A stretch of DNA of 34,475 nt, taken from contig JAJHQS010000012.1 of assembly GCA_020833225.1 (NCBI GenBank), forward strand, positions 1 through 34,475, written 5' to 3'. Of this stretch, positions 1,635 through 25,764 are shown piece by piece (within the stretch, counting starts at the first letter, position 1; every line of letters begins with the position of its first letter). Made by a program: the position numbers and the translations under genes. The notes under the pieces are model-generated. The model searched no databases, had not been told where the DNA came from, and was given only the letters and a program-made list of their open reading frames with translations. The DNA comes from Desulfurococcaceae archaeon. Lineage in GTDB: Archaea; Thermoproteota; Thermoprotei_A; Sulfolobales; Desulfurococcaceae.

Positions 1635-2918
1635 CTATGACAAGTATTTCTCTAAGATGAGTGGTAAGAGTCTCCAACCGTGTTCAATTATACCAAGAGA
1701 TCCTCGTGTACAATCTCTCTCAGTAAATTTAGTAACGTTATCTGCTAATATATCTGGCGTATAAAGTGCTACGGGTACTGGATCATCTGTGTGTGTTTTT
1801 CTACTTGGAGGTGTTGCGTGATCTGCTGTTACGAGGAGAGCGTATTTTTCTTTAATAAATTCAATTAGTGGTTGAACATAGTACTTATCTATCTCTTCAA
1901 TCTTTTTCTTCTTCAACTCTATATTTCCATCATGTCCTGGCTCATCAGGTCCTTTTAAATGCACGTAGATTATGTCGTGGCTGTGGAGAGCTTGTAGTGT
2001 GTTTTTTAATCTCTCTTCATAATCTACTTGTGGGTCTCCGGTGGGTGGTTTTAATACTATAGTGTCAGCTCCGAAAACCTTACCAATGCCTATTTCAACG
2101 GGCATTTCAGCTAGAACAGCAAATTTACATTTATATTTTTCAGGTAGTGGTTGAGTTTTAAGAGGTTCTCCACCAGCATCTCTGAGTAATAGTGCATTTG
2201 CTGGTAAAAGTCCTCGCTTAGCTCTCTCTATGTTGATAGGGTGTTCTGTTAAGATTTTAAGTGCTTTCTCAAAGAATATGTTTGCGAGTTTAGCTGTTAT
2301 TTCTGCTTCGCGCGTTTTTACTAGAGGTCTTATATCTTTTACAAATGGTTCAGGTCTCTCAACAGCAATGCTTACAAGCTCTTTCCTCTCATATGCTGGA
2401 TCATTATTGCTGACCAATGGTGAAAGCTTATAGCTCTTACTACCAATAATTACAATAGCTCTATGGCCAATAGTAGCAATTACTCTCGCATATCCATCGT
2501 ACTCTCCGAGTTCTAAGTTATTTACAGCTTTTGCGAGTTCTCGAGCTTCATCAGCACTAATACCTCTACCAGCTCTCCTATCAATAATTCTCCTAGTAAC
2601 CGGGTCTATTGTAGCGAAATTAGCTCTAAAAGCTATTTCAAAACCCCAATTTAGCTCTAAGTCAGCTCCAAGAGCTTCAAGAACACCTCTACCTGGATAT
2701 ACTTCGCGAGGGTTATAACCTAGTAGAGAGATAACAGCTTCATCACTCTCAGGAGCAACTCCCCTACTAACAGGGTAGAGTAGTCCACAAATCCCCCTAT
2801 TTGCAACCCAGTCAAGCCCAGGTTTTACACTAATCTCGAGGGTTGTCACAGGGTCTTTGAGACTATCAGCTACACCATCTACGACTAAATAGATTAATTG
2901 ATATCTCACTCTACACAC
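1635..2918 (-). CDS. apgM: 2,3-bisphosphoglycerate-independent phosphoglycerate mutase, archaeal type
   Basis: Interconverts 3- and 2-phosphoglycerate in glycolysis/gluconeogenesis; a metalloenzyme of the alkaline phosphatase superfamily. Visible landmarks are 'VDGVADS' near residue 13 (first metal aspartate), 'PESDEAVISLLGYNP' (about residues 55-69, containing the nucleophile serine and the family's GYNP), 'HLKGPDEPGHDG' and 'TADHATPPSRKTHTDDPVPVALY' in the C-terminal third (metal ligands). The length of 427 aa is usual. Start is the GTG at 2918; another in-frame GTG at 2909 has a GGGTGTG sequence at a better distance, so the true start may be three codons later. First gene of the minus-strand group, divergent from malic enzyme across a 198-base promoter region. 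Confidence 0.93.
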   Translation of the reverse strand: MCRVRYQLIYLVVDGVADSLKDPVTTLEISVKPGLDWVANRGICGLLYPVSRGVAPESDEAVISLLGYNPREVYPGRGVLEALGADLELNWGFEIAFRANFATIDPVTRRIIDRRAGRGISADEARELAKAVNNLELGEYDGYARVIATIGHRAIVIIGSKSYKLSPLVSNNDPAYERKELVSIAVERPEPFVKDIRPLVKTREAEITAKLANIFFEKALKILTEHPINIERAKRGLLPANALLLRDAGGEPLKTQPLPEKYKCKFAVLAEMPVEIGIGKVFGADTIVLKPPTGDPQVDYEERLKNTLQALHSHDIIYVHLKGPDEPGHDGNIELKKKKIEEIDKYYVQPLIEFIKEKYALLVTADHATPPSRKTHTDDPVPVALYTPDILADNVTKFTERDCTRGSLGIIEHGWRLLPLILEKYLS

Positions 2919-3055
2919 CCATACACTATAAAGCTTTAATGAAATTAAAACACATCATTACAGCCATGTAGAGCTTATTGAGAGTTATTGATTTATAAAA
3001 GCTCTAATTTTTGTTTAAAAACGCTTAATAATTGCCTGGAGTATTTAATGTAACT

Positions 3056-3084
3056 GTATTATGTTTTTGTATTATGTTTTTAAA
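3056..3084 (+). promoter_or_regulatory. Malic enzyme promoter: 13-bp tandem repeat running into a TATA box
   Basis: The 13-mer GTATTATGTTTTT occurs twice with no gap (3056-3068 and 3069-3081). The second copy runs into a TATA-like TTTTTAAA at 3077-3084, about 33-40 bases before the ATG at 3117. The gene has a strong GAGGTGA ribosome-binding sequence at 3105-3111. The repeats cover the expected TFB/TBP site, so a repressor or activator bound there could control the malate/fumarate genes. Repeat and TATA are seen; the regulatory role is inference. Confidence 0.5.
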
Positions 3085-3116
3085 GTTGACCTAGCATAGA
3101 AAGAAGAGGTGAACTT

Positions 3117-4460
3117 ATGTCTCAGGTTAAAGTAGATTGGGCAGCATTAGCTGAAAAGCTCCATAAGCTCTATGGTGGGAAAATTGAGACGGTTGCTAAG
3201 GTTCCTGTAACTAGGTTTGATGACTTTAATATATGGTATACTCCAGGTGTAGCTGAGCCTTGTAGGAGAATACAGAGAGCTGGGGAAGATGCTTCTTTTG
3301 ATTATACTTGGAGGTGGAATACTGTTGCTGTTATAAGTGATGGTACAAGGGTTTTAGGTCTAGGTAATATAGGGCCGGCTGCTGGTTTACCAGTTATGGA
3401 GGGTAAGTGTTTGTTGTTTAAATATCTTGGCGGCGTTGACTGTTTCCCAATAGTTATACGTGAGAGAGATCCAGAGAAGTTGATATATATAATAAAGGCT
3501 TTAGAGCCGAGTTTTGGTGGAGTAAACTTAGAGGATATAGAGTCTCCTAAGTGTTTCTATATGTTAGAAAAACTAGGAGAAATACTAGATGTACCAGTAT
3601 GGCATGATGACCAGCAGGGAACAGCACTTGTAAGTTTAGCAGGCCTCATAAACGCGTTAAAAGTTGTTGGTAAGAAAATAGATCAAGTCAAGATAGTGTT
3701 GTTTGGAGCTGGTGCAGCAAATATATGCACATATAGATATCTTAAAGTGGCTGGTGCAAAACCAGAGAACATGATTGTGATTGATTCAAAAGGCCCACTT
3801 TACAGGGAACGAGGAGATATTGAAGATATGAAAAAAGAGAACCCGTGGAAATATAGGATTGCTATGGAGACAAATCCAGAGGGTGTAAGAGATGTATCAA
3901 AAGCGTTTGTTGGAGCTGACGTGGTTATCGCGGCTTCTAAGCCGGGTCCAGGAGTTATAAAGAAAGAGTGGATTGCATCAATGAATAAAGATGCTATTGT
4001 ATTTGCTGAGGCAAATCCTATACCTGAAATATGGCCGTGGGAGGCTAAAGAAGCAGGGGCGAGAATTGTTGCTACAGGTAGAGGTGACTTCCCGAATCAG
4101 ATAAATAATAGTTTAGGGTTTCCAGCAGTTTTCAGGGGGGTTTTCACTGTGAGGGCGAGGAAAATGACTGATGAAATGTTCTTGGCGGCAGCTTACGCTA
4201 TAGCGAAGTATGCTGAAGAGACTGGTATTCACGAGGAGAGAATAGTGCCTAGAATGGAGGAGGCTGAGATGTATGTGAAAGAGGCGATGGCTGTCGCAGA
4301 GAAAGCTATAGAGCTAGGTTATGCTAGGAGAAAGCTCTCTAGATCAGAGTTAGAGCTTGAAATAAGAGAGATGATTGAGAGGCCGAAGAAGGAAATGGAG
4401 TTATTTGTTAAGGCAGGTCTTATACAGCTCTACCGAGAGTACAAGGAGTTAAAACCGTAA
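3117..4460 (+). CDS. Malic enzyme (malate dehydrogenase, oxaloacetate-decarboxylating)
   Basis: Interconverts malate with pyruvate and CO2 using NAD(P). Family signatures are present in order: 'YTPGVAEPC' (about residues 41-49), 'WHDDQQGTALVSLAGL' (about 162-177, metal/substrate site), the Rossmann loop 'LFGAGAANICTY' (about 196-207) and 'EANPIPEIWPWEA...GRGDFPNQINNSLGFPAVFRG' in the C-terminal half. The length of 447 aa fits the short prokaryotic class. The ATG has a GAGGTGA ribosome-binding site. Fumarase follows after 15 bases, so malate is likely the shared metabolite. With the fumarate reductase genes downstream, a plausible direction is pyruvate + CO2 -> malate -> fumarate -> succinate; the direction is inference. 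NAD versus NADP preference cannot be read from the sequence. Confidence 0.95.
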   Translation: MSQVKVDWAALAEKLHKLYGGKIETVAKVPVTRFDDFNIWYTPGVAEPCRRIQRAGEDASFDYTWRWNTVAVISDGTRVLGLGNIGPAAGLPVMEGKCLLFKYLGGVDCFPIVIRERDPEKLIYIIKALEPSFGGVNLEDIESPKCFYMLEKLGEILDVPVWHDDQQGTALVSLAGLINALKVVGKKIDQVKIVLFGAGAANICTYRYLKVAGAKPENMIVIDSKGPLYRERGDIEDMKKENPWKYRIAMETNPEGVRDVSKAFVGADVVIAASKPGPGVIKKEWIASMNKDAIVFAEANPIPEIWPWEAKEAGARIVATGRGDFPNQINNSLGFPAVFRGVFTVRARKMTDEMFLAAAYAIAKYAEETGIHEERIVPRMEEAEMYVKEAMAVAEKAIELGYARRKLSRSELELEIREMIERPKKEMELFVKAGLIQLYREYKELKP

Positions 4461-4475
4461 ATTCGGGTATTATAT

Positions 4476-5360
4476 ATGCCATCTCTAGAGGAGTTTAAAG
4501 AGATAATAGCTAAGGCTGTCTCAGAAACCATAGAGCGTGCAGCAATATATATACCACCAGATATTAAACAAGCACTTAAACGTGCATATGAGGAAGAGGT
4601 AAATCCTATGGCTAAGTCACAGTTAGAAGCAATACTTAAAAATATTGAGTTAGCTGAGAAATTTAAGAAGCCAGTATGTCAAGATACTGGTTCTATCATA
4701 TATTATGTCACAGTGGGATATGACTTCCCTGGATTAAGAGTTTTAAGAGAAGCTCTCGTAGAAGCAGTAAGAAGAGCCACAAAACAAGTACCTCTGAGAC
4801 CTAATACTGTTGATCCATTTACTGGTAGAAATCCAGGTGATAATACAGGTAGGTATATGCCATATATACACCTAGAACTAGTTGAAGGAGATGGCTTAGA
4901 GGTTACAGTGGTGCCGAAGGGGGGTGGTTCAGAGGGGGTTTCATACCTAGAACTACCACCTCCAGGTGAGGGTGTTAAAGCAGTTAAAAGAGTAGTTGTA
5001 GATGCTGTTTTAAAAGCAGGCTCACTACCTTGTCCACCAACAATTGTAGGTGTTGGTGTTGGTGGTGGTGCAGACATAGCTATGTATTTAGCTAAAAAAG
5101 CTGCTTGTACTAGGAAAATAGGTACTTTAAACCCTGATCCCGTGTTATATGAGCTTGAAAAAGAGCTATATGAGGCTCTTAATAGCCTTGGTATAGGCCC
5201 TATGGGTCTTGGGGGAAAATATACGGTATTAGCTGTACACGTAGATTATGCACATAGACATCCAGCAGCAATGCCTGTTGCAGTGGCTTTTCAATGCTGG
5301 GCTACTAGGAGAGCTACTGTGAAAATAAATGCTAATGGGAAATATGTTATAGAGCAATAG
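4476..5360 (+). CDS. Class I fumarate hydratase, alpha (N-terminal) subunit
   Basis: Catalytic Fe-S half of the two-subunit, oxygen-sensitive class I fumarase (malate <-> fumarate + water). A cluster cysteine lies in 'KPVCQDTGS' (C68); further candidate cysteines are in 'LPCPPTIVG' and 'AACTRKIG'. Other family signatures are 'PKGGGSEG', 'VGVGVGGGAD' and 'GLGGKYTVLAVHVDYAHRHPAAMPVAV' near the C-terminus. Length 294 aa is typical. It starts 15 bases after malic enzyme and ends just before the beta subunit, so all three are very likely one operon. A fumarase/tartrate dehydratase ambiguity exists in the family; the malic enzyme and fumarate reductase neighbours favour fumarase. Confidence 0.94.
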   Translation: MPSLEEFKEIIAKAVSETIERAAIYIPPDIKQALKRAYEEEVNPMAKSQLEAILKNIELAEKFKKPVCQDTGSIIYYVTVGYDFPGLRVLREALVEAVRRATKQVPLRPNTVDPFTGRNPGDNTGRYMPYIHLELVEGDGLEVTVVPKGGGSEGVSYLELPPPGEGVKAVKRVVVDAVLKAGSLPCPPTIVGVGVGGGADIAMYLAKKAACTRKIGTLNPDPVLYELEKELYEALNSLGIGPMGLGGKYTVLAVHVDYAHRHPAAMPVAVAFQCWATRRATVKINANGKYVIEQ

Positions 5361-5371
5361 GGGTGATATAT

Positions 5372-5974
5372 GTGGCTGAATATAAGCTTAAGACACCTCT
5401 ATCAGAAGCTGATGTTAGGAAATTGAGAGTTGGAGACATAGTATATCTTACTGGGACAATTGTAACTGCTAGAGATGCTGCGCATAGAAGGATGTTAGAT
5501 TACCTCAAAGAGGGTAAACCCATCCCCGTGGATTTGAGAGGAGGGGTTATATATCATTGTGGTCCAGTAGTTCAAAAACTAGGCGACCAGTGGATAGCGC
5601 TGGCGGCAGGACCCACGACAAGTGCTAGAATGGATCTCTATGAGGCAGATGTGATCAAGAATTTTGGGGTGAGAATGGTTATTGGGAAAGGTGGAATGGG
5701 GGCTCGAACGGCTCAAGCATGTAGAGAATATGGTGCTGTCTACGCATATTTCACTGGAGGAGCAGCTGTATTAGCGGCTAATGCAATAAAACGTGTTGTG
5801 AGAGTTGAGTGGCTTGATTTAGGAATACCTGAAGCTTTATGGGTGTTTGAAGTCGAAGACTTTGGCCCATTATTAATAACAATAGATAGTGAAGGCCGTA
5901 ATTTAACTGAAGAGGTTGTAGAGCAAGCTAAGAAGAAACGAGAAGAGGTACTTAAAAAACTTGGAGTAACTTAG
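5372..5974 (+). CDS. Class I fumarate hydratase, beta (C-terminal) subunit
   Basis: Partner of the preceding alpha subunit. The N-terminus 'EYKLKTPLSEADVRKLRVGDIVYLTGT' and 'RDAAHRRML' are characteristic, as are 'YHCGPVV', 'AAGPTTSARMD' and 'IGKGGMG' in the middle (substrate binding swivel domain). About 200 aa, the normal length. An upstream in-frame GTG at 5363 is possible. I prefer GTG 5372 because GGGGTGAT (5360-5367) is then at ribosome-binding distance. Transcribed with malic enzyme and the alpha subunit. Confidence 0.94.
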   Translation: MAEYKLKTPLSEADVRKLRVGDIVYLTGTIVTARDAAHRRMLDYLKEGKPIPVDLRGGVIYHCGPVVQKLGDQWIALAAGPTTSARMDLYEADVIKNFGVRMVIGKGGMGARTAQACREYGAVYAYFTGGAAVLAANAIKRVVRVEWLDLGIPEALWVFEVEDFGPLLITIDSEGRNLTEEVVEQAKKKREEVLKKLGVT

Positions 5975-6036
5975 AAGTTTAAATATTATTTCACAGTTTT
6001 ATTCTAACATTTACTATTTTACAAGTACTCGGTGAC

Positions 6037-7995
6037 ATGAGTTTGAGTAGTGAGGAGCCGCGAGTAGGTGTTTTTGTCTGCCATTGTGGCCTTAACATAG
6101 CTGGCGTAGTAGATGTTAAAAAAGTTGTAGAAGAGGCTAAAAGACTTCCTCACGTAGTTCACGCTGAAGATTATATTTATATGTGCTCTGCACCCGGGCA
6201 AGAACTTATTAAAAAAGCGATTTTAGAGAAGAAACTCAACGCTGTAGTGGTTGCAGCATGTACTCCCACAATGCATTATGAGACATTTGCACGAGCTATA
6301 GAAGCAGTTGGCTTAAATCGTTACAGGCTCGAGATGGCTGTGATAAGGGAGTTTTCTAGCTGGGTGCATGCAGATAAGAAGAAGGCAACAGAAAAAGCAA
6401 TAAAACTAGTAAAAGCAGCTGTGGTGAAGGTTGCTGATAATAGCCCGCTAGAGCCTGTTAAGAGTAGAACTGTGAGAAAAGTCCTGGTAATTGGTGGTGG
6501 AATAGCAGGGATAACAGTTGCCTTAGACATTGCAAATGCCGGAATACCCGTAATACTAGTTGAAAAGACACCGACAATTGGAGGTAAAATGGCTATGCTT
6601 AGTGAAACTTTTCCAACACTAGATTGTGCTCAATGTATACTTACACCAAAAATGGCTGAAGTTGCTAGGCACCCGTTAATAAAAATCTATACTAACTCTG
6701 AAGTAGTAGATGTTAGTGGATTTGTTGGAAACTTCAAGGTGAAAATACTTCAGCGCGCTAGATATGTTAAAATAGGTGATTGTAGGCTCTGCGGCTTCTG
6801 CGAGAGGGTTTGCCCAGTAAAAGTTCCAAGCGAGTTTAATAGAGGTCTCTCTGATAGGAAGGCTATTTACATACCATTCCCACAGGCAATACCTCCTGCC
6901 TATGTAATTGACAAGGCTAATTGTAGACACTGGGTAGATGGGTGTGATAAGTGTTTAAGAGTATGTCCAACTAAGGCCATAGACTTTAATGATGAAGATA
7001 AATTAGTAGAAGAAGAAGTTGGAGTTATAATTGTTGCAACAGGCTATGATTTATATCCTGCTGAGAGGCTTAAGGAATATGGTTATGGCTTATATAGAGA
7101 TGTAATAGATTCACTGCAATTTGAGAGGATACTCTCAGCAGGTGGTCCTACAAAAGGCCTTATACTAAGACCTAGTGATAGAAAACCAGTGAAGAGAGTT
7201 GTGTTTATACAGTGTGTTGGTTCACGAGACATTAATCACCTCGAATATTGTTCAAAAATATGTTGTATGTACACGGCGAAACACGCATTAATATTTAAAG
7301 AGCGAGTACCAGGCGGAGAGGCATATGTGTTTTACATAGATATAAGGGCTGCTGGGAAGGGTTATGAGGAGTTCATTAAGAGAGTACAAGAGGAGTTTCA
7401 AGTAAACTACATACGTGGCAGAGTTAACAGGGTTTACCGAGATCCCAAAACAGGCGACATGGTTGTTGTTGGATTTGATACTCTTACAGGCCAGTTATTA
7501 ACGGTCAAGGCAGACCTCGTTGTATTAGCCACGGGCTTAGTGCCACAGTTACCTTATGAATTAGCATCTAAACTGAAAATACCTTTTGATAAATATGGAT
7601 TTGTTCAAGAAGCACATCCAAAGTTAAGACCTGTTGAAACAGTGACTAGTGGTGTATTTGTATGTGGTGTTGCACACGGCCCCAAAGATATTGCTGAAAC
7701 TGTTGCACAAGCCTCTGCCGCGGCGGCTAAGGCTATGGAATTATTGTATTCAGAGTATATTGTTAAAGAGCCATTAGTAGCTGTGGTTGATAGAGATTTA
7801 TGTAGTGGTTGTAGAGTATGTGTAGGTATTTGTCCATATGGTGCATTAGAGCTAGTAGAGGGGAAAGCGAAAGTTAATGAGTTGTTATGTGAGGGTTGTG
7901 GGGCTTGTGTAGTTGCATGTCCAAGTCGTGCAATAGAGTTGAGGAATTACTCAACTAAGCAATTATTAGAAATGGTTAAGGCTGTGGTGAAGTGA
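6037..7995 (+). CDS. hdrA: Heterodisulfide reductase subunit A (HdrA), flavin electron-bifurcating subunit
   Basis: Full-length HdrA (652 aa) with the methanogen-type domain order. An N-terminal cysteine region contains 'FVCHCGLN' (C15, C17) and 'CTPTMHYE'. An FAD Rossmann loop 'VIGGGIAGITVALDIANAG' starts near residue 150. 'TLDCAQCILTPKMAEV' (near 195) is the CxxC close to the flavin. An inserted ferredoxin domain carries 'CRLCGFCERVCP' and 'CDKCLRVCPTKAI'. The C-terminal 2[4Fe-4S] ferredoxin carries 'CSGCRVCVGICP' and 'CEGCGACVVACP'. In known complexes HdrA takes H2 electrons through MvhD and splits them between HdrBC and ferredoxin. Its stop overlaps mvhD by GTGA. A TATA-like TTTAAATATT near 5979 probably drives the eight-gene operon. 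Bifurcation here is inferred from family and domains. Confidence 0.96.
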   Translation: MSLSSEEPRVGVFVCHCGLNIAGVVDVKKVVEEAKRLPHVVHAEDYIYMCSAPGQELIKKAILEKKLNAVVVAACTPTMHYETFARAIEAVGLNRYRLEMAVIREFSSWVHADKKKATEKAIKLVKAAVVKVADNSPLEPVKSRTVRKVLVIGGGIAGITVALDIANAGIPVILVEKTPTIGGKMAMLSETFPTLDCAQCILTPKMAEVARHPLIKIYTNSEVVDVSGFVGNFKVKILQRARYVKIGDCRLCGFCERVCPVKVPSEFNRGLSDRKAIYIPFPQAIPPAYVIDKANCRHWVDGCDKCLRVCPTKAIDFNDEDKLVEEEVGVIIVATGYDLYPAERLKEYGYGLYRDVIDSLQFERILSAGGPTKGLILRPSDRKPVKRVVFIQCVGSRDINHLEYCSKICCMYTAKHALIFKERVPGGEAYVFYIDIRAAGKGYEEFIKRVQEEFQVNYIRGRVNRVYRDPKTGDMVVVGFDTLTGQLLTVKADLVVLATGLVPQLPYELASKLKIPFDKYGFVQEAHPKLRPVETVTSGVFVCGVAHGPKDIAETVAQASAAAAKAMELLYSEYIVKEPLVAVVDRDLCSGCRVCVGICPYGALELVEGKAKVNELLCEGCGACVVACPSRAIELRNYSTKQLLEMVKAVVK

Positions 7996-8426
7996 ACTTG
8001 GATTCCTGGGAGCCTAAAATAGTGGCATTTCTATGTAAGTGGTGTTCAGGTGCAGCAGCCGAGCTCGCCGGTGTTAGTAGGTTATTATACTCGCCAAACG
8101 TGATTCCAATAATAGTCCCCTGCTCTGGACGCGTTGACCCTGATTTAATAGTAGAGGCTTTCATGAACGGGGCAGATGGAGTCATAGTGGCGGGTTGTCA
8201 CACACCCTCAGATTGTCACTATATTGCGGGGAACTTTAAGGCCTTTAAGAGGGTTTACATGTTGAAGAAGCTACTTAGTGACTTTGGCATAGAGCCTGAG
8301 AGGTTGAAATTAGAGTGGGTGAGTGCTGTTGAATCACAAAAACTCAAAACACTATTTGACGAGTTCACATTTACTATTAGGAAGCTAGGTCCACTTAGAG
8401 TAAAAATACGTGGTGGTAGTGTGTGA
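7992..8426 (+). CDS. mvhD: MvhD-like [2Fe-2S] protein linking hydrogenase to HdrA
   Basis: Small iron-sulfur protein (144 aa) that hands electrons from the MvhAG hydrogenase to HdrA. Five conserved cysteines are seen: 'LCKWCSGAAAE' (C15, C18), 'VPCSGRVDP' (C44) and 'AGCHTPSDCHY' (C69, C75). This is the hallmark pattern of the family, often called the methyl-viologen-reducing hydrogenase delta subunit. It begins with a GTG overlapping the hdrA stop (GTGA) and ends with a GTGA overlap into mvhG, so translation is coupled on both sides. It is a separate protein here, not fused to HdrA as in some organisms. Confidence 0.95.
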   Translation: MNLDSWEPKIVAFLCKWCSGAAAELAGVSRLLYSPNVIPIIVPCSGRVDPDLIVEAFMNGADGVIVAGCHTPSDCHYIAGNFKAFKRVYMLKKLLSDFGIEPERLKLEWVSAVESQKLKTLFDEFTFTIRKLGPLRVKIRGGSV

Positions 8427-9400
8427 ATAAACCTAATATAGTTATAGTTCACGGAGCTATTTGTGGAGGGTGTGATGTAGCTTTAGCGAATAGTGAAGAA
8501 GCTATTTCAAAGATCTTGGAGAACATTGATCTAGCGTATTGGAGTGTAGCAGTTGACGCTAGACTCTCCGACTTAAAATCACTTGGTAAAATAGATGTTG
8601 CGGTATTTATGGGTGGTGTAAGGACTAGTGAAGATGAGGAATTAGCGAAGTGGTTGAGAGAGAAATCTAAGATACTAGTAGCTTTTGGTAGTTGTTCAGC
8701 ATATGGTGGAATACCTGGATTAGCTGCATTAACTTCTCCTATTGAATTAATTAACTTAGTGAAGTCAACGATTACTACTAGTTCTCAATATAAGAGTATT
8801 ATTGAATTACCTAAATTACCAGAGCTAAGTACTTATAGGGCACTACCCCACGTAGTCAATGTAGACATAGTAGTTCCCGGCTGTCCTCCCCCTATTAAAG
8901 TCGTTAATGAATTTGTAAATGTGCTCTTAAAATACATTGCTGGCGAGGAACCAATAGGGCCATTAGTAATTGCTGGTTCTAAAGCACAATGTGAGACTTG
9001 TCCTAGAAAACCTAAAGATCTCTCTAAACTACAAATACCGAGTATAAAGAGGATATATGAGGCTAAGATCGAGGAAAATAGGTGTTTCTTAGAGCAGGGA
9101 ATACTATGTTTAGGCCCTGTTACTCGAGAAGGCTGTGAACACAGTTGTATCAATGTGAATATGCCTTGCACGGGTTGTTTTGGACCACTACCAGGATTTG
9201 AAGATGTAGGTCTTAGATACATAGCTGGGATATTAGCACTAGTCGCTGTTGAAAGAGAGAAAGAGTTAATGGAGCAGGGTTTAGCTAAAATTCTCGATAA
9301 GCTCGTAGATCGTCTTGGAGTTCTCTATAGGTATACTCTGCCTAGGTCTCGCCTATATATGCTTAAATTAAGCTTAGAGGGTAGTGAATATGCAAGGTAA
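8423..9400 (+). CDS. mvhG: F420-non-reducing [NiFe]-hydrogenase small subunit (MvhG-like)
   Basis: Electron-transfer subunit of a group 3 cytoplasmic [NiFe] hydrogenase. Cluster ligands are visible: 'AICGGCDVALANSEE' (C14, C17; proximal cluster), 'FGSCSAYGGIPGL' (C91), 'VPGCPPPIKVV', then 'CETCPRKPKD', 'CLGPVTREGCEHSC' and 'MPCTGCFGP' for the other clusters. There is no twin-arginine signal or membrane anchor, consistent with a soluble enzyme. The length of 325 aa is slightly above usual. GTG start overlapping mvhD by four bases; it overlaps mvhA at its 3' end. Confidence 0.95.
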   Translation: MNKPNIVIVHGAICGGCDVALANSEEAISKILENIDLAYWSVAVDARLSDLKSLGKIDVAVFMGGVRTSEDEELAKWLREKSKILVAFGSCSAYGGIPGLAALTSPIELINLVKSTITTSSQYKSIIELPKLPELSTYRALPHVVNVDIVVPGCPPPIKVVNEFVNVLLKYIAGEEPIGPLVIAGSKAQCETCPRKPKDLSKLQIPSIKRIYEAKIEENRCFLEQGILCLGPVTREGCEHSCINVNMPCTGCFGPLPGFEDVGLRYIAGILALVAVEREKELMEQGLAKILDKLVDRLGVLYRYTLPRSRLYMLKLSLEGSEYAR

Positions 9401-10844
9401 AAATCTAGTAGTAGATCCGGTTACGAGAATTGAGGGTGAAGCAAGGGTTATAATAACCTTAGATGATGCGGGTAGAGTAAACAACGTATATTACCAAGTA
9501 TTAGAGCTAAGAGGTTTTGAGGCATTTTGCCGTGGTAGACTTGTAGAGGAGATGCCTCGAATATCTCAGACTATATGTGGAGTTTGTAGTATACCTCATC
9601 ATATGGCTTCTGCTAAAGCTGTAGATATGTTATTTGGTAGAAAACCCACTGAAACAGCTATTAAAGTGAGAGAACTGGTACATTATATCTACATGATAGA
9701 TGATCATCTATTACACTTAGCTGTAATGGCGTTAGCCGATCTACTCGCGGAGAGAAGTAGTGAGTTACGTGGACTTGTAGACGTAGTAAGGAGATATCCA
9801 GAGGTTATTAAGAAGTTGATTACAGCCAGGTCTATAACGACGAGTATCATTAAAAAGATCTGTGGGAAAATAATACATGTGCCGATAGCTATACCTGGAG
9901 GTGTTTCCAGGAAGCTGAGCAAAGAAGACTTAGAGTTTATTGAAAAAAGTTTAAGAGAGCTGAGAGGACATTTACAGTATACTCTAGATCTCTTTAAAAA
10001 TACTCTCTCAAAATCGCGAAGACTACAAGAACTTGCGAGGAGAGGGGATTATGAGTTAAAGACTTATTACATGGGCTTAGTTAGTGAAGATGGATCTCTT
10101 AGTTTCTATGATGGGGTATTAAGAGTAGTAGATTATAAGGGTAGTGAGGTAGCTACTTTTAAACCTGAGGAGTATACGAAATATATTGCAGAACATTATG
10201 AGGAGTGGAGTTATTCAAAATTCCCATATTTAACTATCATAGGGTGGCAGGGTTTAGAGGAGGGAGGTGTTGTTAGAGTTGGACCATTGGCTAGGTTAAA
10301 TGTGTGTAGTAAAGTGCCGGCTGAGTGGGCTTTAAATGAGTATAAAGAGATGCTCGAGTTCTTTGGCGGTGAGAAAGTTGTAAATAATACTCTTGCTTAT
10401 CACTGGGCACGACTAATTGAGAATATCTATGCACTTGAGGTAGTAGAGAAAATGATGATCGAACACAGGGACTTATTGAGTACTGGTGAAGTAGTGAACT
10501 TAGAGGGGACACCTCGATATGAGGGTATCGGAGTAGTAGAAGCTGCACGTGGGGTTTTAATTCACCATTACAAATCTGATTCGAATTTCCTCGTGACAGA
10601 TGTCAATATAATAACTCCCACAGCTATAAATAATGCTGCTATAAATACTCAGCTTAAGAAGATAGCGTTGAAATCGTGGACTAGACTACTGCTAAATGAG
10701 GACTTAACTAATTTAATCAGCGAGTTAGAAGTGGCTATAAGAGCTTTTGACCCTTGTAACTCCTGTGCAACTCACATCGCAGGATCTAGGTTGATCAGGG
10801 TGTTTATCTACGACTCTCATGGTAATTTATTAAAGGTGATTTAG
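9390..10844 (+). CDS. mvhA: F420-non-reducing [NiFe]-hydrogenase large subunit (MvhA-like)
   Basis: Catalytic subunit that splits or forms H2. The N-terminal 'VDPVTRIEGEARV' is the classic hydrogenase start. The nickel ligands are intact: L1 'SQTICGVCSIPHH' (C63, C66) and L2 'FDPCNSCATH' (C456, C459, H462). Twenty-two residues follow that histidine, so an endopeptidase of the HycI/HyaD type is expected to cut after H462; no such protease or Hyp maturation gene lies in this window. Start: ATG at 9390, eight bases after GAGGG; an in-frame GTG at 9384 is too close to it. Overlaps mvhG by a few bases. Group assignment (3c, Mvh/Vhu type) follows from the HdrA and MvhD partners. Confidence 0.95.
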   Translation: MQGKNLVVDPVTRIEGEARVIITLDDAGRVNNVYYQVLELRGFEAFCRGRLVEEMPRISQTICGVCSIPHHMASAKAVDMLFGRKPTETAIKVRELVHYIYMIDDHLLHLAVMALADLLAERSSELRGLVDVVRRYPEVIKKLITARSITTSIIKKICGKIIHVPIAIPGGVSRKLSKEDLEFIEKSLRELRGHLQYTLDLFKNTLSKSRRLQELARRGDYELKTYYMGLVSEDGSLSFYDGVLRVVDYKGSEVATFKPEEYTKYIAEHYEEWSYSKFPYLTIIGWQGLEEGGVVRVGPLARLNVCSKVPAEWALNEYKEMLEFFGGEKVVNNTLAYHWARLIENIYALEVVEKMMIEHRDLLSTGEVVNLEGTPRYEGIGVVEAARGVLIHHYKSDSNFLVTDVNIITPTAINNAAINTQLKKIALKSWTRLLLNEDLTNLISELEVAIRAFDPCNSCATHIAGSRLIRVFIYDSHGNLLKVI

Positions 10845-10856
10845 TGGGGTGGTGAA

Positions 10857-11228
10857 GTGTCAGAAGTATTAAATCGCGTAGTTGAATATAGTGGTAAAAA
10901 CCCGTATGCTTGTTATCAATGTGGAACGTGCTCAGCTGTTTGCCCCATGGTGAGGTTTATGGATATTCCTCCTCATAGAGCTATAAGGCTTTTACAAATA
11001 GGTGCAGGAGCACTTGTGTTATCTAGTAATACTATATGGATTTGCGTTAGCTGTATGAGATGTGTTGATCGCTGTCCGAGAGATGTAGCACCAGGAGTAG
11101 TGTTTGAAGCATTGAGGCTTATAACGCTGAGACAGGGGATTGATAAGTTAAAGTATGAGGAGATCCCTAACATCGAAGAGGCACCTACTCTTGCGATAGT
11201 AAGTGCTTCGAGGAAGCTTACAGGGTGA
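10857..11228 (+). CDS. hdrC: Heterodisulfide reductase subunit C (HdrC), short form
   Basis: Ferredoxin-like subunit carrying two [4Fe-4S] clusters that wire HdrA to HdrB. Both motifs are complete: 'CYQCGTCSAVCP' (C19, C22, C25, C29) and 'CVSCMRCVDRCP' (C63, C66, C69, C73). It is only 123 aa, whereas methanogen HdrC is usually around 185 aa, so the C-terminal helical part is reduced. GTG start preceded by GGGGTGGTGA. The stop overlaps the hdrB start (GTGA). Confidence 0.93.
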   Translation: MSEVLNRVVEYSGKNPYACYQCGTCSAVCPMVRFMDIPPHRAIRLLQIGAGALVLSSNTIWICVSCMRCVDRCPRDVAPGVVFEALRLITLRQGIDKLKYEEIPNIEEAPTLAIVSASRKLTG

Positions 11229-12031
11229 TTAATGTGAAAATGCTCTATTATCCTGGTTGCACAGTTAAGAGAAATGCTTTAGAGTATGAGAAGAAGACAT
11301 TAGAAATACTGAGTAAAATAGGTATTGAAGTATATGAATTAGATAATTGGTATTGTTGTGGAGCATTTTATAGTCTAGCAAAAGACGACTTAATGAAACA
11401 CATTAGTGGTTTGAGAACTCTCATAAAGGCCCAGGTACAAGCCAGAAAACATGGGACTAATAAACTTCTAACATTGTGTCCAATGTGTTATAATGTGCTT
11501 AAGAGAGTAAATCACATGCTCAGAGAAAACCCAGAAAATCTTGATACATTAGCGTTGTTTATGGATGAAGAAGAAAAGTATACTATTGGAATAGAAGTGT
11601 TACATTTACTTGAAGTGTTAAGAGATAATATTGATAAACTTAAGAGATTAGTGGTAACAGAGGTTAAAGATGTCGTGGTAGCACCATACTATGGTTGTAC
11701 AGTGCTCAGGCCGAGGGAAATCGCATTTGATAATGCCGAAAACCCCGAGGTTATGGATAACATACTGAGAGCTCTTAAGATAGAGGTTATAGAATTTCCG
11801 TTTAAAACTGAGTGTTGTGGAGCATATCAATCAGTTTTCAATAGGAAGATCGTGTTTGAGAAATCTGGGGAAATATTAGAAGAAGCTGCAGTAAGAGGTG
11901 CTAATATTATTGCAGTGATCTGTCCACTGTGTAAGTACAATTTAGAAACAACACTATTATCTCTCGGCAAGAAGTTAAGAATTGAAATTGTTTATTTAAC
12001 TGATTTATTGTCGCGGGCGACGGGCCCATGA
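11225..12031 (+). CDS. hdrB: Heterodisulfide reductase subunit B (HdrB), two intact CCG domains
   Basis: In methanogens HdrB reduces the CoM-S-S-CoB heterodisulfide at two noncubane [4Fe-4S] clusters. Both cysteine-rich CCG domains are complete: C12 / C44-C45 / C85-xx-C88, and C158 / C197-C198 / C233-xx-C236. All ligands for two noncubane clusters are therefore kept. The length of 268 aa is close to usual (about 290). It starts with a GTG overlapping hdrC. Since no methanogenesis gene is in view, its substrate may not be the CoM/CoB disulfide. It could act on another disulfide or serve as the electron entry to the adjacent fumarate reductase, in place of the CCG half of a fused TfrB. That last point is inference. 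Confidence 0.93.
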   Translation: MINVKMLYYPGCTVKRNALEYEKKTLEILSKIGIEVYELDNWYCCGAFYSLAKDDLMKHISGLRTLIKAQVQARKHGTNKLLTLCPMCYNVLKRVNHMLRENPENLDTLALFMDEEEKYTIGIEVLHLLEVLRDNIDKLKRLVVTEVKDVVVAPYYGCTVLRPREIAFDNAENPEVMDNILRALKIEVIEFPFKTECCGAYQSVFNRKIVFEKSGEILEEAAVRGANIIAVICPLCKYNLETTLLSLGKKLRIEIVYLTDLLSRATGP

Positions 12032-12092
12032 TCACTACTTTTACTAATTATTATTTTATATCAATCTATAAGTTAGATATGGCTAGGACTAG

Positions 12093-12824
12093 GTGGCATC
12101 TGTGAGTGTAGCCTTGGTTACAGTATCTCGTAGAGAGATACTTCAGCCTAAAATGGTTAAGATATATGTGATGGGTCGAGAATACCTTGTTCCAGAGGGT
12201 CTCACGATTCACAAGGCTCTAGAATACGCGGGATTTAGATTAATAAGAGGTGTTGGATGTAGAGGAGGGTTCTGTGGGGCTTGTGCAACATTGTATAGGA
12301 AGCCTGGAGAATACAAGTTGAGGATTGCATTAGCATGTCAAAATGTAGTTGAAGACGGGATGTACCTCGTAGTATTACCATATACACCTATTCCGAGAGT
12401 GAAATATAAGTTAGAATCACTTAAGCCAGATGTAGGTTTAGTTCTAAAATTATATCCTGAGATAGCTAGATGTGTTGCCTGTAATACCTGTACAAAGGCG
12501 TGTCCACAGGGTTTACAGGTCATGGACGCTATCCAGGCGATTAAAAGAGGGGATTTAGCAAAAGCTGCAGATTTAACATTTGATTGTATAGCGTGTGGAA
12601 TATGCTCAATGAGGTGTCCTGCGGAGATAAGACATGCAAATATATTCCACTTGGTTAGGAGGATTTATGGGAAATACATGTCACCAAAGCCAAGGCACTT
12701 AGAAGATAGGATCAAGGAGATAGAGCAAGGTAAATACAGAGAGGAATTAGAAAAATTAAAGCAAGCATCTGTGGACGAGTTGAAAAAACTATATGCTTCA
12801 AGGGTGATTGAGCCAGAGGAGTAG
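12093..12824 (+). CDS. tfrB: Fumarate reductase iron-sulfur subunit, TfrB-like but without CCG domain
   Basis: Electron-transfer subunit feeding the flavoprotein encoded next. An N-terminal plant-type [2Fe-2S] domain has C56, C61, C64 and C82 ('GCRGGFCGAC...ACQ'). The second domain has two full four-cysteine motifs, 'CVACNTCTKACP' (C127-C137) and 'CIACGICSMRCP' (C165-C175). A charged helical tail follows. Thiol:fumarate reductase TfrB of methanogens is about twice as long because it also carries an HdrB/D-like CCG half; here that half is missing and a separate HdrB sits immediately upstream. The gene starts 61 bases after hdrB, with a TATA-like TTTTATAT near 12052, so an internal promoter is possible. 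GTG 12093 is the first start; ATG 12153 would begin exactly at the ferredoxin fold. Confidence 0.88.
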   Translation: MASVSVALVTVSRREILQPKMVKIYVMGREYLVPEGLTIHKALEYAGFRLIRGVGCRGGFCGACATLYRKPGEYKLRIALACQNVVEDGMYLVVLPYTPIPRVKYKLESLKPDVGLVLKLYPEIARCVACNTCTKACPQGLQVMDAIQAIKRGDLAKAADLTFDCIACGICSMRCPAEIRHANIFHLVRRIYGKYMSPKPRHLEDRIKEIEQGKYREELEKLKQASVDELKKLYASRVIEPEE

Positions 12825-12834
12825 AGGTGTGAGT

Positions 12835-14496
12835 ATGTGTGGATATCCATCTGAGATCAAGAAGTTAATAAAATACGTGGAGGAGACACGGGAGGAGAGG
12901 TTAAAGAAGCCATATAGGAGATTATCGCTAGAAGAACGCGAGAAACTATTAAAAGAGTGGCATCCTGACTATAAGCCGGGGACTAAGAGGCCTCTGAGAG
13001 TAGGTGTTTGTAAGGGTACAGTAGTTTATAATGAAGTAGCAGATTTGTTAGAGGCATGGCCGCTCATAGACCCCGATCAAATAGACCTCAGTAAAGTAGA
13101 CTATGATGTTGACGTATTAGTCATTGGTAGTGGTGGGGCTGGTTTAGCTGCGGCACTGTGGGCTATATATAGTGGAGTTTCTCCAGATGCTGTACTCTTA
13201 GTTACAAAGTTGAGACTAGGAGACTCTAACACGGTTAAAGCCCAAGGCGGTATACAAGCAGCAGATAGACCAGAAGATAGTCCTATATTACATTTCATAG
13301 ACACTGTTGGGGGAGGTTTATTTGCAAATAAGAGAGATCTTGTAGAGGCACTTGTAACAGATATGCCGTTCATAATGAAGTGGCTTGAAGATCTCGGCGC
13401 TATGTTTGATAAAAATCCTGACGGCAGCTATGTAGAGGTAAGTGGAGGTGGAGCGTGTAGGAGGAGATTACATTGCGCTAGAGACTACACAGGCCTTGAA
13501 ATACTGAGAGTTCTGAGAGAGGAGTTTTTAAATCATGACGTACCATATTTAGAGTTTACACCAGCAATAGAGTTACTCACAGACCCAGAGGATGGAGGAG
13601 TTTCTGGTGCAGTACTCTATAATCTTGAAACTGGAGAGTATTATGTGGCTAGTGCTAAAGCGGTTATAATAGCGACTGGAGGAGCTGGTAGACTTCACAT
13701 TGCAGGGTTTCCGACGAGTAATCACTATGGAGCTACTATGGATGGTGTAGTAATGGGTTATAGAGTAGGGGCTAATATAGTTCACCTCGACACATTCCAA
13801 TTCCACCCAACTGGCGTAGCGTTTCCAGAGGCAATTAGAGGTGAATTAATAACGGAGAAGTGTAGGAGTCTTGGAGCACAACTAGTAAATGTTCACGGCG
13901 AGCAATTTATACATCAACTAGAAACTAGAGATGTAGTATCAAGTGCAATAATAAAGGAATGTGCTGAGGGTAGAGGTATTATTACTCCAACTGGGGCTAT
14001 GGGAGTATGGCTTGATATGCCAATGATAGACATGTTAAGAGGCCCCGGCACAATAAAGAAGGCTCTGCCTGCTATGTATAGGCAATTCATAAGGCATGGA
14101 ATAGATATAACACAAGAACCCGTGTTGACATATCCAACACTACACTACCAAAATGGTGGAATAGAGATAGATGTATTTTCCAGAGTATTGAGGCCTAATG
14201 GAGAGCCTATACCAAGGCTATTAGCAGCAGGCGAAGTGGGTGGAGGAGTTCATGGTAGAAACAGGTTAATGGGCAACTCGCTAGCAGGCATATTAGTGTT
14301 TGGTAGAAGGGCCGGGATAACAGCGGCGAAAACAGTAAAAGAGACGTCGACAAGACCTAAACTCTCACTAAAACACCTAGAAAAATATATTGAGGAGTTG
14401 AAATCTATAGGCGTACCGAGAGAGAGGCGTTCACCAATTCTACTACCAGATTATAGAGGAGAAAAAGTCTTACTAAGATCTCTCAGAATATTTTAA
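12835..14496 (+). CDS. tfrA: Soluble fumarate reductase flavoprotein subunit (TfrA-like)
   Basis: FAD protein of the succinate dehydrogenase/fumarate reductase family. The Rossmann motif 'DVLVIGSGGAGLAAALWA' is at about residues 93-110. Then come 'TVKAQGGIQAA' (133-143), 'FQFHPTG', a catalytic-arginine segment 'LETRDVVSSAI', 'HYQNGGIEID' and 'GRNRLMGNSLAGILVFGRRAG'. The residue equivalent to the FAD-linking histidine of quinone-type FrdA/SdhA is an asparagine (N132), so FAD should be noncovalent. About 90 residues precede the Rossmann fold and the usual C-terminal helical domain is short. No membrane anchor genes follow. ATG 12835 is preceded by GAGGTG; a TTG at 12808 is open but overlaps tfrB. 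Predicted to reduce fumarate to succinate in the cytoplasm. Confidence 0.9.
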   Translation: MCGYPSEIKKLIKYVEETREERLKKPYRRLSLEEREKLLKEWHPDYKPGTKRPLRVGVCKGTVVYNEVADLLEAWPLIDPDQIDLSKVDYDVDVLVIGSGGAGLAAALWAIYSGVSPDAVLLVTKLRLGDSNTVKAQGGIQAADRPEDSPILHFIDTVGGGLFANKRDLVEALVTDMPFIMKWLEDLGAMFDKNPDGSYVEVSGGGACRRRLHCARDYTGLEILRVLREEFLNHDVPYLEFTPAIELLTDPEDGGVSGAVLYNLETGEYYVASAKAVIIATGGAGRLHIAGFPTSNHYGATMDGVVMGYRVGANIVHLDTFQFHPTGVAFPEAIRGELITEKCRSLGAQLVNVHGEQFIHQLETRDVVSSAIIKECAEGRGIITPTGAMGVWLDMPMIDMLRGPGTIKKALPAMYRQFIRHGIDITQEPVLTYPTLHYQNGGIEIDVFSRVLRPNGEPIPRLLAAGEVGGGVHGRNRLMGNSLAGILVFGRRAGITAAKTVKETSTRPKLSLKHLEKYIEELKSIGVPRERRSPILLPDYRGEKVLLRSLRIF

Positions 14497-22810: not shown

Positions 22811-23092
22811 TTAAGATGATGTACATGTTTCAAGTAAACTAATAATTTTACTCTTTAAGTCTTCAATGTCAACTCCGAGAACAATAGTACTAGAGATCTC
22901 TTTAAAAGCTTCTTCAATACACACTCTACTACTACATTTCCTAAGCTTACTCTCTAATTCCCCAATAGACTCTTCAGGATATGCGAAGAAATCCCCTGAA
23001 ATAGTTAAATCTAAGATTTCACATTTATCGCCGAGAATTATATCTAATTTCACTGTCTTTACGTAACGTAGCACTAGTGATGTCGACTTCAC
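22811..23092 (-). CDS. lplB: Lipoate-protein ligase accessory subunit (LplB-like)
   Basis: Small protein (about 93 aa) corresponding to the C-terminal domain of lipoate-protein ligase, encoded separately in archaea such as Thermoplasma as LplB. It is needed with LplA to activate lipoate or octanoate. Visible is the 'KTVKLDIILGDKCEILDLTISGDFFAYPEE' beta hairpin segment, in which 'ISGDFF.YPEE.I..LE..L' is the family signature. GTG 23092 follows a GAGGTGA sequence and lies directly after the lplA stop. An upstream start at 23119 would overlap lplA. Confidence 0.85.
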   Translation of the reverse strand: MKSTSLVLRYVKTVKLDIILGDKCEILDLTISGDFFAYPEESIGELESKLRKCSSRVCIEEAFKEISSTIVLGVDIEDLKSKIISLLETCTSS

Positions 23093-23096
23093 GAGA

Positions 23097-23861
23097 TCAC
23101 CTCTTAAACACCCATTCAAAACTCTTATATTTACTTACAAGTTCACTTGCTACCCTAAGCTCTCTCTCAGAGAGCTCGTCATAGTAAATCTCAGCGCTAA
23201 GAGTATTTGAAAAACCCTCTACAAGATACTCTACAAGGACGTTGACGTCGACTTCGCCAATGATATCTCTAAGCGTTATAACTCTATCTCTAATACTCTT
23301 TACACCCTTACTCTCAAGTTTCTCTCGAGGCGCTATGAGGGCTTTCTCTAGAATATTGAGATCTGTAGCATACATTAATGTGCCATGTTGTAGTAAAAAT
23401 CCAGCTCTACGTGTTTGTGCACTACCAGAAATCTTCTTACCATGAACTACAATATCATTTATGGGTATAAAATCTGCAGAAACACCAAGCTTCCTGAGAG
23501 CATAGACAAGGCTATTACATATAACCCTATAGCTCTCTAAGACATCTGTTAAAACACCCCTGATAGGTAAGACTATACTATATGTTAACTCGCCACTAGT
23601 ATCGTGGTAAACTGAACCACCACCCGTGATCCTCCTAGTATATTGTATACCGCTCTCATCTAGAAACTCTAAGTTAACAGCCTCCCTAATCTTCTGAAAA
23701 TAACCTATTGTAACAGCACTAGGCTTAAACCTATATATTCTCAAAGTATTATCAATTTCACCGCGAGATCTCAGCGTTAATAATGCCTCATCAATAGCCA
23801 TTTGCCAATAAACATCACGCCCCTCAAGATCTAGTATAACTCTCAACTTCAAAAACCACAC
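23097..23861 (-). CDS. lplA: Lipoate/octanoate-protein ligase, catalytic subunit (LplA-like)
   Basis: Catalytic subunit of a bipartite ligase that attaches octanoate or lipoate to a carrier lysine via an adenylate. Key segments are 'MAIDEALL' (about 21-28), 'RRITGGGSVYHDTSGELTYS' (76-95, lipoyl-AMP binding) and 'NDIVVHGKKISGSAQTRR' (about 139-156, containing the catalytic lysine). The length of 254 aa lacks the C-terminal domain, which is supplied by the adjacent lplB. It is divergent from the two radical SAM genes. In the archaeal route this ligase is thought to load octanoate that LipS1/LipS2 then convert to lipoyl. Confidence 0.93.
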   Translation of the reverse strand: MWFLKLRVILDLEGRDVYWQMAIDEALLTLRSRGEIDNTLRIYRFKPSAVTIGYFQKIREAVNLEFLDESGIQYTRRITGGGSVYHDTSGELTYSIVLPIRGVLTDVLESYRVICNSLVYALRKLGVSADFIPINDIVVHGKKISGSAQTRRAGFLLQHGTLMYATDLNILEKALIAPREKLESKGVKSIRDRVITLRDIIGEVDVNVLVEYLVEGFSNTLSAEIYYDELSERELRVASELVSKYKSFEWVFKR

Positions 23862-23893
23862 CGAGACTGTAGAAATATAGATGACTATAACAG

Positions 23894-23913
23894 TTATTTA
23901 ACTTTATTTAACT
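23894..23913. promoter_or_regulatory. Tandem 10-mer in the divergent lipoate promoter
   Basis: TTATTTAACT occurs twice back to back between lplA (start 23861) and the first radical SAM gene (start 23960). Read on the minus strand it gives two TTAAATAA TATA-like boxes 33-52 bases ahead of lplA. It may be simply a duplicated TATA or a shared operator for both directions. Confidence 0.45.
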
Positions 23914-23959
23914 CTAAGACATATTATGAGCTATGTGAAATATATGTAGGCTGAGCATA

Positions 23960-24898
23960 TTGTTTTTAGTAAGGGCATCTATTGGAACATTGGCAGTATT
24001 AGGCCTCATAGACTTAAAAATCCTAGAGACACCTACAACTGCATATTTCCTTCAATACTCACCTAGTGGTTGTAGTGCTAATTGTGCTTATTGTCTACAA
24101 TCACGTAGATTTGCTCATAGTAGTAGTGATAAGTTAGGTAGAGTTATATGGCCTCTTATTGACTTAGAAACTATTAAGAAGGCTTGGAGAAAAAGTTTTA
24201 CTCGCATATGTTTTCAAACAGTGATTAAACGTAATTTTGCTAGTGAGGCATTAAAAATAATAGAGAATATTAGGTCTTTTGAACCCAATATTCCAATTTC
24301 ACTGGCAATTACACCAGTACCAAGAGTACTCCTAGAAAGCGTGGTAAAGTGGGGTGTGGATGTCATTGGAGTGGGATTAGATACAGCCACGTTACAGCTT
24401 TTTAATGAGTGGAATAAGCCATATAGCTGGGATTTATATTGGAGATTTATTGAGAAAGCTGTAGAGGTCTATGGTAGAGGTAATATATATGTTCACTTAA
24501 TAGTGGGTTTAGGAGAGTCTTTTAAAGAGCTAGTAGATGTTATGAGGAAGATCTATAGACTTGGTGGTAGAATAGCCCTCTTCAATTACATTAATGAGCG
24601 TGGTGTTTCACCAGTAAATATCAAGTACTATAGACTTGTACAATTAGCGAGATTTCTGCTAGAAAACGGATTAAACCCAGATCTCTACATTGACTATGAG
24701 CACTACATAGTTAAAGGAGAAATACCATTAGATAATATATTAGAGGCCTTTTATACAAGTGGATGTCCAGGTTGTAATAGGCCATTTTATAGTGAGAGCC
24801 CTAGGGGGCCTTTATATAATATTCCATCAAGGCGCCTACTAGGAATATACTATGAGAAGCTTAGAGAGGAGCTTTTAAGTATTGGTGTCTCTTTGTGA
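23960..24898 (+). CDS. Radical SAM protein, probable lipoyl synthase component (LipS1/LipS2 pair)
   Basis: Radical SAM enzyme of 312 aa with the cluster motif CX3CX2C at C38, C42 and C45 ('SGCSANCAYC'). A second cysteine pair near the C-terminus, 'SGCPGCNRP' (C269, C272), is a candidate ligand set for an auxiliary cluster, as needed for sulfur insertion. It is not LipA, whose CX4CX5C motif is missing. Its place beside lplA/lplB and its four-base overlap with a second radical SAM gene match the archaeal LipS1/LipS2 system, in which two proteins together insert the two sulfurs into octanoyl groups. I cannot say which of the two this is. TTG start at 23960; the N-terminal 20 residues are uncertain. 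Confidence 0.8.
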   Translation: MFLVRASIGTLAVLGLIDLKILETPTTAYFLQYSPSGCSANCAYCLQSRRFAHSSSDKLGRVIWPLIDLETIKKAWRKSFTRICFQTVIKRNFASEALKIIENIRSFEPNIPISLAITPVPRVLLESVVKWGVDVIGVGLDTATLQLFNEWNKPYSWDLYWRFIEKAVEVYGRGNIYVHLIVGLGESFKELVDVMRKIYRLGGRIALFNYINERGVSPVNIKYYRLVQLARFLLENGLNPDLYIDYEHYIVKGEIPLDNILEAFYTSGCPGCNRPFYSESPRGPLYNIPSRRLLGIYYEKLREELLSIGVSL

Positions 24899-25764
24899 AA
24901 CTCATATATTTTACTCCAAGATCTAGGTATAAGGTAATATCACTTACAGGGTTTTGGTGTGCACTAAACTGTAAGTTTTGTAATAAAAGGTACTTAGTAA
25001 ACATGGTGCATACAACACCCTCCAACTTTATAGACACTGTGAGAGAGCTCTATGTTAATGGTGTAAGAGGAGTGTTATTGAGTGGTGGTTTTAGAAGTAA
25101 TGGGACATTGCCGATAGAGCCTTATATAGATAAATTACGTGTAGTTAAAAGAGAACTAGGTATAATTACTAGTGCTCATCTAGGTCTAATTACTAATGAA
25201 GAACTACTACATAGTTTAAGAGGGCTTATAGATACTGTAGATTTTGAATTTACATTAAGCTCATTTATAGTTAACTATGTAAGAGGCTTTACTTTTAGCC
25301 CTAAGAAATACGTGAATGTTCTATCCAAGATCGTTGATAGTGGATTACATATAGTACCACATATTTACGCGTGGCATCCTGAGATCAGAAGAGATGTTCT
25401 CAGAGAAGAATTAAAAATTATAAGTGATTTTGGAATTAAAGAAATAGTACTCCTAGTTTATATAGACCCCTTTAAAACCCATGAGCACACTAAACTAGCC
25501 AGCATAGTAGTAGATAATATTAAATATGTAAGGAACACATATCCTGGAAGACTCTACATGGGGTGTATGAGGCCTGGTTATATTAAGCCACTAATAGATC
25601 CGGTACTTGTAGAGAAAGAGCTTGTTGATAGAATAGTAAACCCCTACTACAAGGTCTTAAGAGAACAGCCTGGGGATATTTACGATGCATGTTGCTCAAT
25701 ACAATTAATTGAATCATTACGCGAATTATTCCTCGTGAGTAAGGTTTCTAATAGAAATAGCTAA
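24895..25764 (+). CDS. Radical SAM protein, probable lipoyl synthase component (LipS1/LipS2 pair)
   Basis: Second radical SAM protein, 289 aa, with CX3CX2C at C22, C26 and C29 ('FWCALNCKFC') and the 'LLSGGF' SAM-binding turn at about 61-66. Extra cysteines in the C-terminal part, C224 ('GCMRPGY') and C266-C267 ('DACCSIQ'), could bind an auxiliary Fe-S cluster. GTG start overlapping the previous gene's stop (GTGA), so the two products are probably made together. Alternative readings are biotin-synthase-like or another sulfur-inserting radical SAM enzyme; the lipoate ligase neighbours make lipoyl synthase the best fit. Confidence 0.8.
   Translation: MKLIYFTPRSRYKVISLTGFWCALNCKFCNKRYLVNMVHTTPSNFIDTVRELYVNGVRGVLLSGGFRSNGTLPIEPYIDKLRVVKRELGIITSAHLGLITNEELLHSLRGLIDTVDFEFTLSSFIVNYVRGFTFSPKKYVNVLSKIVDSGLHIVPHIYAWHPEIRRDVLREELKIISDFGIKEIVLLVYIDPFKTHEHTKLASIVVDNIKYVRNTYPGRLYMGCMRPGYIKPLIDPVLVEKELVDRIVNPYYKVLREQPGDIYDACCSIQLIESLRELFLVSKVSNRNS

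Follow-up and report, generated by a model that had tools for sequence, protein, structure and literature searches.

The closest described counterparts of the locus analysed here are the LplAB-LipS1/S2 route of lipoate assembly in archaea (Tanabe et al. 2023, PMC10332631), in which a bipartite ligase is clustered with lipS1 and lipS2, typically in the order lipS2-lplA-lplB-lipS1, and LipA is absent, and the two radical SAM enzymes of Thermococcus kodakarensis, LipS1 (TK2109) and LipS2 (TK2248). The cluster ligands of the latter have been mapped by mutation (PMC9585515). In LipS2, the SAM cluster is bound by C39/C43/C46 and the auxiliary cluster by C85, C276, C279 and probably H178; in LipS1, the respective residues are C27/C31/C34 and C230, C276 and C277, with H159 as the likely fourth ligand. 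The role of lipoate in those archaea that carry LipS1/S2 and have no pyruvate dehydrogenase E2 has been named as an open question (PMC9585515).

We analysed a stretch of 34,475 nucleotides (hereafter the window) from a Desulfurococcaceae archaeon (assembly GCA_020833225.1, contig JAJHQS010000012.1). Positions 22811-25764 hold a four-gene cluster, which almost certainly encodes the LplAB-LipS1/S2 pathway, with the H protein of the glycine cleavage system as its most likely acceptor. Two genes are located on the minus strand: lplB (22811-23092; 93 aa), coding for the accessory ligase subunit, and lplA (23097-23861; 254 aa), coding for the catalytic subunit of a lipoate/octanoate-protein ligase. 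They are divergent from lipS2 (23960-24898; 312 aa) and lipS1 (24895-25764; 289 aa) on the plus strand, both predicted to encode radical SAM sulfur insertases and overlapping by GTGA. The 98 bp that separate the divergent lplA and lipS2 genes (23862-23959) are, judging by their sequence and the conserved layout, a probable promoter region. The first-pass annotation, which had described a split ligase facing an overlapping radical SAM pair, placed all four ORFs correctly. A chance arrangement is excluded, since the family E-values lie between 1e-77 and 1e-85 and the cluster is kept across the order.

The lplB ORF as listed extends to a TTG codon at 23119, which would make the gene overlap lplA. 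The GTG codon at 23092 is a more likely start than this TTG. The GTG is situated 4 bases past the lplA stop and is preceded by AGAGGTGAT, which overlaps that stop; the protein read from it begins MKSTSLVLR, the form of N-terminus found in relatives, and the LplB match obtained in the genome search likewise begins at 23092. At the other end of lplB, a dapA-like ORF overlaps the gene (22811-22826) only when the first ATG of that ORF is used, and an ATG further inside (MKPEG..., approx. 22727) is the probable start of the dapA-like protein.

Both radical SAM proteins scored above the curated NCBIfam equivalog cut-offs of the respective families (LipS2, 286.1 versus 270 bits; LipS1, 259.8 versus 230 bits). 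NCBIfam family scoring placed neither of them in LipA, in agreement with the earlier remark that the pair does not resemble this enzyme, and no LipA above the TIGR00510 cut-off was found in the genome.

Each protein contains six cysteines. In LipS2 (positions 38, 42, 45, 84, 269 and 272), the CX3CX2C radical SAM motif is formed by C38/C42/C45, while C84, C269 and C272 are the auxiliary-cluster cysteines; in LipS1 (22, 26, 29, 224, 266 and 267), the motif is C22/C26/C29 and the auxiliary cysteines are C224 and the CC pair C266/C267. All of the LipS2 residues named, together with H179, are invariant in the 19 archaeal sequences aligned and in 23 bacterial relatives (31-36% identity). In LipS1, C224, C266, C267 and H156 are invariant in 19 archaeal sequences, and C22/C26/C29 are present in 18 of these 19. 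By motif, spacing and published residue numbers, rather than by sequence alignment, all 12 cysteines correspond to the T. kodakarensis ligands, and the conserved histidine is shared as well; T. kodakarensis LipS1 differs in having two extra, non-ligand cysteines (C54 and C65). The motifs and additional C-terminal cysteines had been noted in the first-pass annotation with the correct residue numbers, although its listing of cluster ligands missed C84 and the conserved histidine; its assignment of the pair to LipS1 and LipS2 is borne out by the family scores and by the match to the Thermococcus ligands.

The predicted structure of LipS2 (mean pLDDT 74.5, pTM 0.80) was nearest to lipoyl synthases (LipA) and then to biotin synthases (BioB). 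We regard this fold match as supporting evidence only, in view of TM-scores of approx. 0.5 and a poor model of the radical SAM loop; confidence is low at the SAM-cluster loop (38-61) and at residues 275-294. Sequence searches of the PDB returned no matches for LipS1 and only spurious short pentatricopeptide matches for LipS2 (residues 188-228), no stretch of which was significant alone.

The catalytic subunit of the ligase, LplA, matches the Pfam family LplA-B_cat (E=1.4e-52) and the Thermoplasma LplA structures 2ars/3r07_A (E=2e-33). It carries RRITGGGSVYHD (the RRxTGGGxVYHD motif) and KKISG, which contains the catalytic lysine K143; R76, R77, the GGG triplet, H86, D87 and K143 are conserved in 17 of 17 aligned ligases. 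As a single sequence, LplB gave a weak match to the NCBIfam LplB family (30.9 bits, under the cut-off of 65), whereas a profile built from 13 relatives had Thermoplasma LplB (3r07_C) as its top PDB match (E=1e-13). The lplB gene adjoins lplA in most relatives, and the LplB of the cluster is the only one detected in the genome. These matches to both Thermoplasma subunits agree with the proposed two-part ligase. The Thermoplasma acidophilum enzyme (PDB 3r07) likewise has separate catalytic and accessory subunits, but this archaeon lacks a lipoyl synthase (PMC10332631), whereas LipS1/S2 are present here.

Searches of 41 genomes (the archaeon's own and 40 relatives) yielded full LipS2 matches in 20, and full LipS1 matches in exactly the same 20. 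The ligase adjoins the LipS genes in most of these genomes; in 13 of the 20 it is directly beside lipS2-lipS1 and divergent from them, the others being rearranged. The divergent layout is thus the common form in this order, unlike the arrangement reported as typical of archaea (PMC10332631). In a tree of 43 ligases, the LipS-linked ones cluster together (3 label changes against 14.5 with shuffled labels; 0 of 500 shuffles were as low). The LplA of the cluster falls within the LipS-linked clade, whose lone unlinked member (G001) lies at the edge of a short contig, in a genome that is 78% complete. Among 33 bacterial LipS2 loci, a ligase was present in 31 and a GcvH-type protein in 25.

By analogy with characterised relatives, from which the order of reactions, the substrates and the acceptor are taken, LplA and LplB would use ATP to activate free octanoate (or lipoate) and join it to a lysine of the acceptor protein. 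LipS2 is predicted to put sulfur on C8 of the attached octanoyl chain, yielding an 8-mercaptooctanoyl group, which LipS1 would convert into the lipoyl group by placing the second sulfur on C6. In each LipS protein, one [4Fe-4S] cluster would cleave SAM, and an auxiliary [4Fe-4S] cluster, presumably held by the three cysteines and probably one histidine, would be tied to sulfur transfer. The acceptor would most likely be GcvH, the H protein of the glycine cleavage system that is encoded in full on another contig; a 2-oxoacid dehydrogenase has a stand-alone lipoyl domain that may be a second one.

The family cut-offs, the ligand residues and the Thermoplasma ligase matches agree with the archaeal LipS1/LipS2 route with an octanoate/lipoate ligase that had been proposed from the letters of the window, and strong homology points to this pathway function. 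The sequence thereby supports a lineage able to make protein-bound lipoate without LipA. The cluster is a well-formed, ordinary member of a pathway that has already been described (PMC10332631, PMC9585515); what is gained is therefore the annotation and a better-defined target rather than a novel mechanism.

No lipoyl carrier is encoded in the window, as had been stated earlier: in six-frame searches of the genome, the only carriers were a GcvH (contig 44) and a lipoyl domain (contig 72), so that the genome does contain lipoyl-domain proteins. The sole GCV_H match (143 aa) scored above the true GcvH cut-offs and has its lipoyl lysine in SVKAT. Its locus is complete, consisting of gcvT, SHMT, gcvH, gcvPA, gcvPB and lpd, most of which are above curated cut-offs; it is on a separate contig from the lipoate cluster.

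GcvH was found in 16 of 16 near-complete LipS1/S2 genomes versus 12 of 17 without LipS (Fisher p=0.044, shared ancestry being ignored). This co-occurrence is suggestive only, because many LipS-negative relatives also carry GcvH. Most of the latter keep a ligase and are without LipA (in G008 and G021 the ligase is situated beside gcvH), a gene content that fits scavenging of lipoate. Since the gcv locus is complete, with the lipoyl lysine in place, and GcvH co-occurs with LipS, GcvH is the most likely acceptor. GcvH is present in every near-complete LipS1/S2 genome searched within this order, and the findings suggest that lipoate serves glycine cleavage.

The other candidate acceptor is encoded on contig 72, where genes for a second ligase (Lpl2) occur together with those for E1 alpha, E1 beta, an E2 core devoid of a lipoyl domain, and an 80-aa stand-alone lipoyl domain. 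It is possible, but on balance unlikely, that this domain is the main substrate of the same pathway, or that both acceptors are served equally. The domain has a lysine at the expected place, the contig 72 ligase has no LplB of its own while the only one detected is in the lipS cluster, and no other lipoyl synthase above the cut-off was found in the genome. Against this, contig 72 carries its own ligase, and E2 is mostly found without LipS1/S2 in the genomes searched: 7 of the 8 E2-bearing genomes lack LipS, the E2 core being present in 1 of 16 near-complete LipS1/S2 genomes versus 7 of 17 without (p=0.039, shared ancestry being ignored).

In three relatives (G002, G007 and G019), lplB adjoins ligases related to Lpl2. 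No lplB was found beside Lpl2 in the archaeon's own genome (contig 72, 1879-2572), where a degraded copy was also sought and not found. As the assembly consists of 84 contigs and is 99.55% complete, a gene may have been missed. Catalysis by LipM and LipL depends on a cysteine; Lpl2 contains none and is therefore not a cysteine-based octanoyltransferase like LipM. It is conceivable, though less likely than not, that the one LplB serves both LplA and Lpl2, with one LipS1/S2 pair lipoylating GcvH and the stand-alone domain; alternatively, Lpl2 may no longer require LplB, although it has not acquired a catalytic cysteine.

The contig 72 genes form a block (2573-13687), in which a galactitol-type PTS (EIIC, EIIB, EIIA, HPr and EI) is interleaved with the split 2-oxoacid dehydrogenase, and an epimerase and a sugar kinase are also encoded. 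The PTS-E2-E1-lipoyl domain-epimerase block is kept in two relatives (G007 and G019). No relevant description of an archaeal PTS cluster containing a 2-oxoacid dehydrogenase was found in the literature searched.

It is highly improbable that the main role of the cluster is in an Hdr-linked process, in which it would lipoylate an sHdr-type LbpA for sulfur oxidation, even though LipS1/S2 first came to notice together with sHdr-LbpA clusters (PMC6067878, PMC10332631) and Hdr genes are located in the same window, approx. 11 kb from the lipoate genes. The Hdr block (6037-12031) encodes HdrA, MvhD, the small and large subunits of a NiFe hydrogenase, HdrC and HdrB, the hydrogenase being of the Vhu/Mvh type; genes for an iron-sulfur and a flavoprotein subunit, both fumarate-reductase-like, come next. 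No sHdr-type LbpA was found beside these genes or elsewhere in the genome, and the single GcvH family protein is above the true GcvH cut-off and located in the gcv locus. The link to the nearby Hdr genes suggested in the first-pass annotation is unsupported, because there is no LbpA near them and they constitute an HdrABC-NiFe hydrogenase set, not an sHdr with LbpA.

The sLpl(AB)-LipS1/S2 sets that accompany sHdr-LbpA in sulfur oxidisers (PMC6067878) contain a homologous ligase and lipoyl synthases. The present cluster differs from them in that no LbpA-type carrier is encoded beside it, the ligase is unfused and the Hdr genes are hydrogenase-linked. One relative (G034) does carry such a set: it has two LipS1/S2 sets, the second of which, composed of LipS2, LipS1 and a fused LplAB ligase, lies beside a GcvH/LbpA-like gene.

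It is scarcely credible that the radical SAM pair resembles biotin synthase or inserts sulfur in some other pathway, beside a ligase that acts on biotin or is a neighbour only by chance. LipS1 and LipS2 were formerly annotated as biotin synthases (PMC9585515), and BioB structures are among the LipS2 fold matches, but the NCBIfam biotin synthase model gave only 27 bits with LipS2, roughly a tenth of what the LipS models gave and well under the cut-off of 225, and no match with LipS1, so that this identity was rejected by family score. The ligase belongs to the lipoate type and not to BirA, and the paired LipS genes and the ligase are kept together across the order. The best match of neither protein was thus a biotin synthase.

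Two minor observations concern the surroundings of these genes. In relative G034, a third ligase adjoins another GcvH-like gene. In the window itself, malic enzyme and fumarase genes precede the Hdr block and the fumarate-reductase-like pair directly follows it, and this region as a whole (3117-14496) may constitute an H2-dependent fumarate-reducing system.
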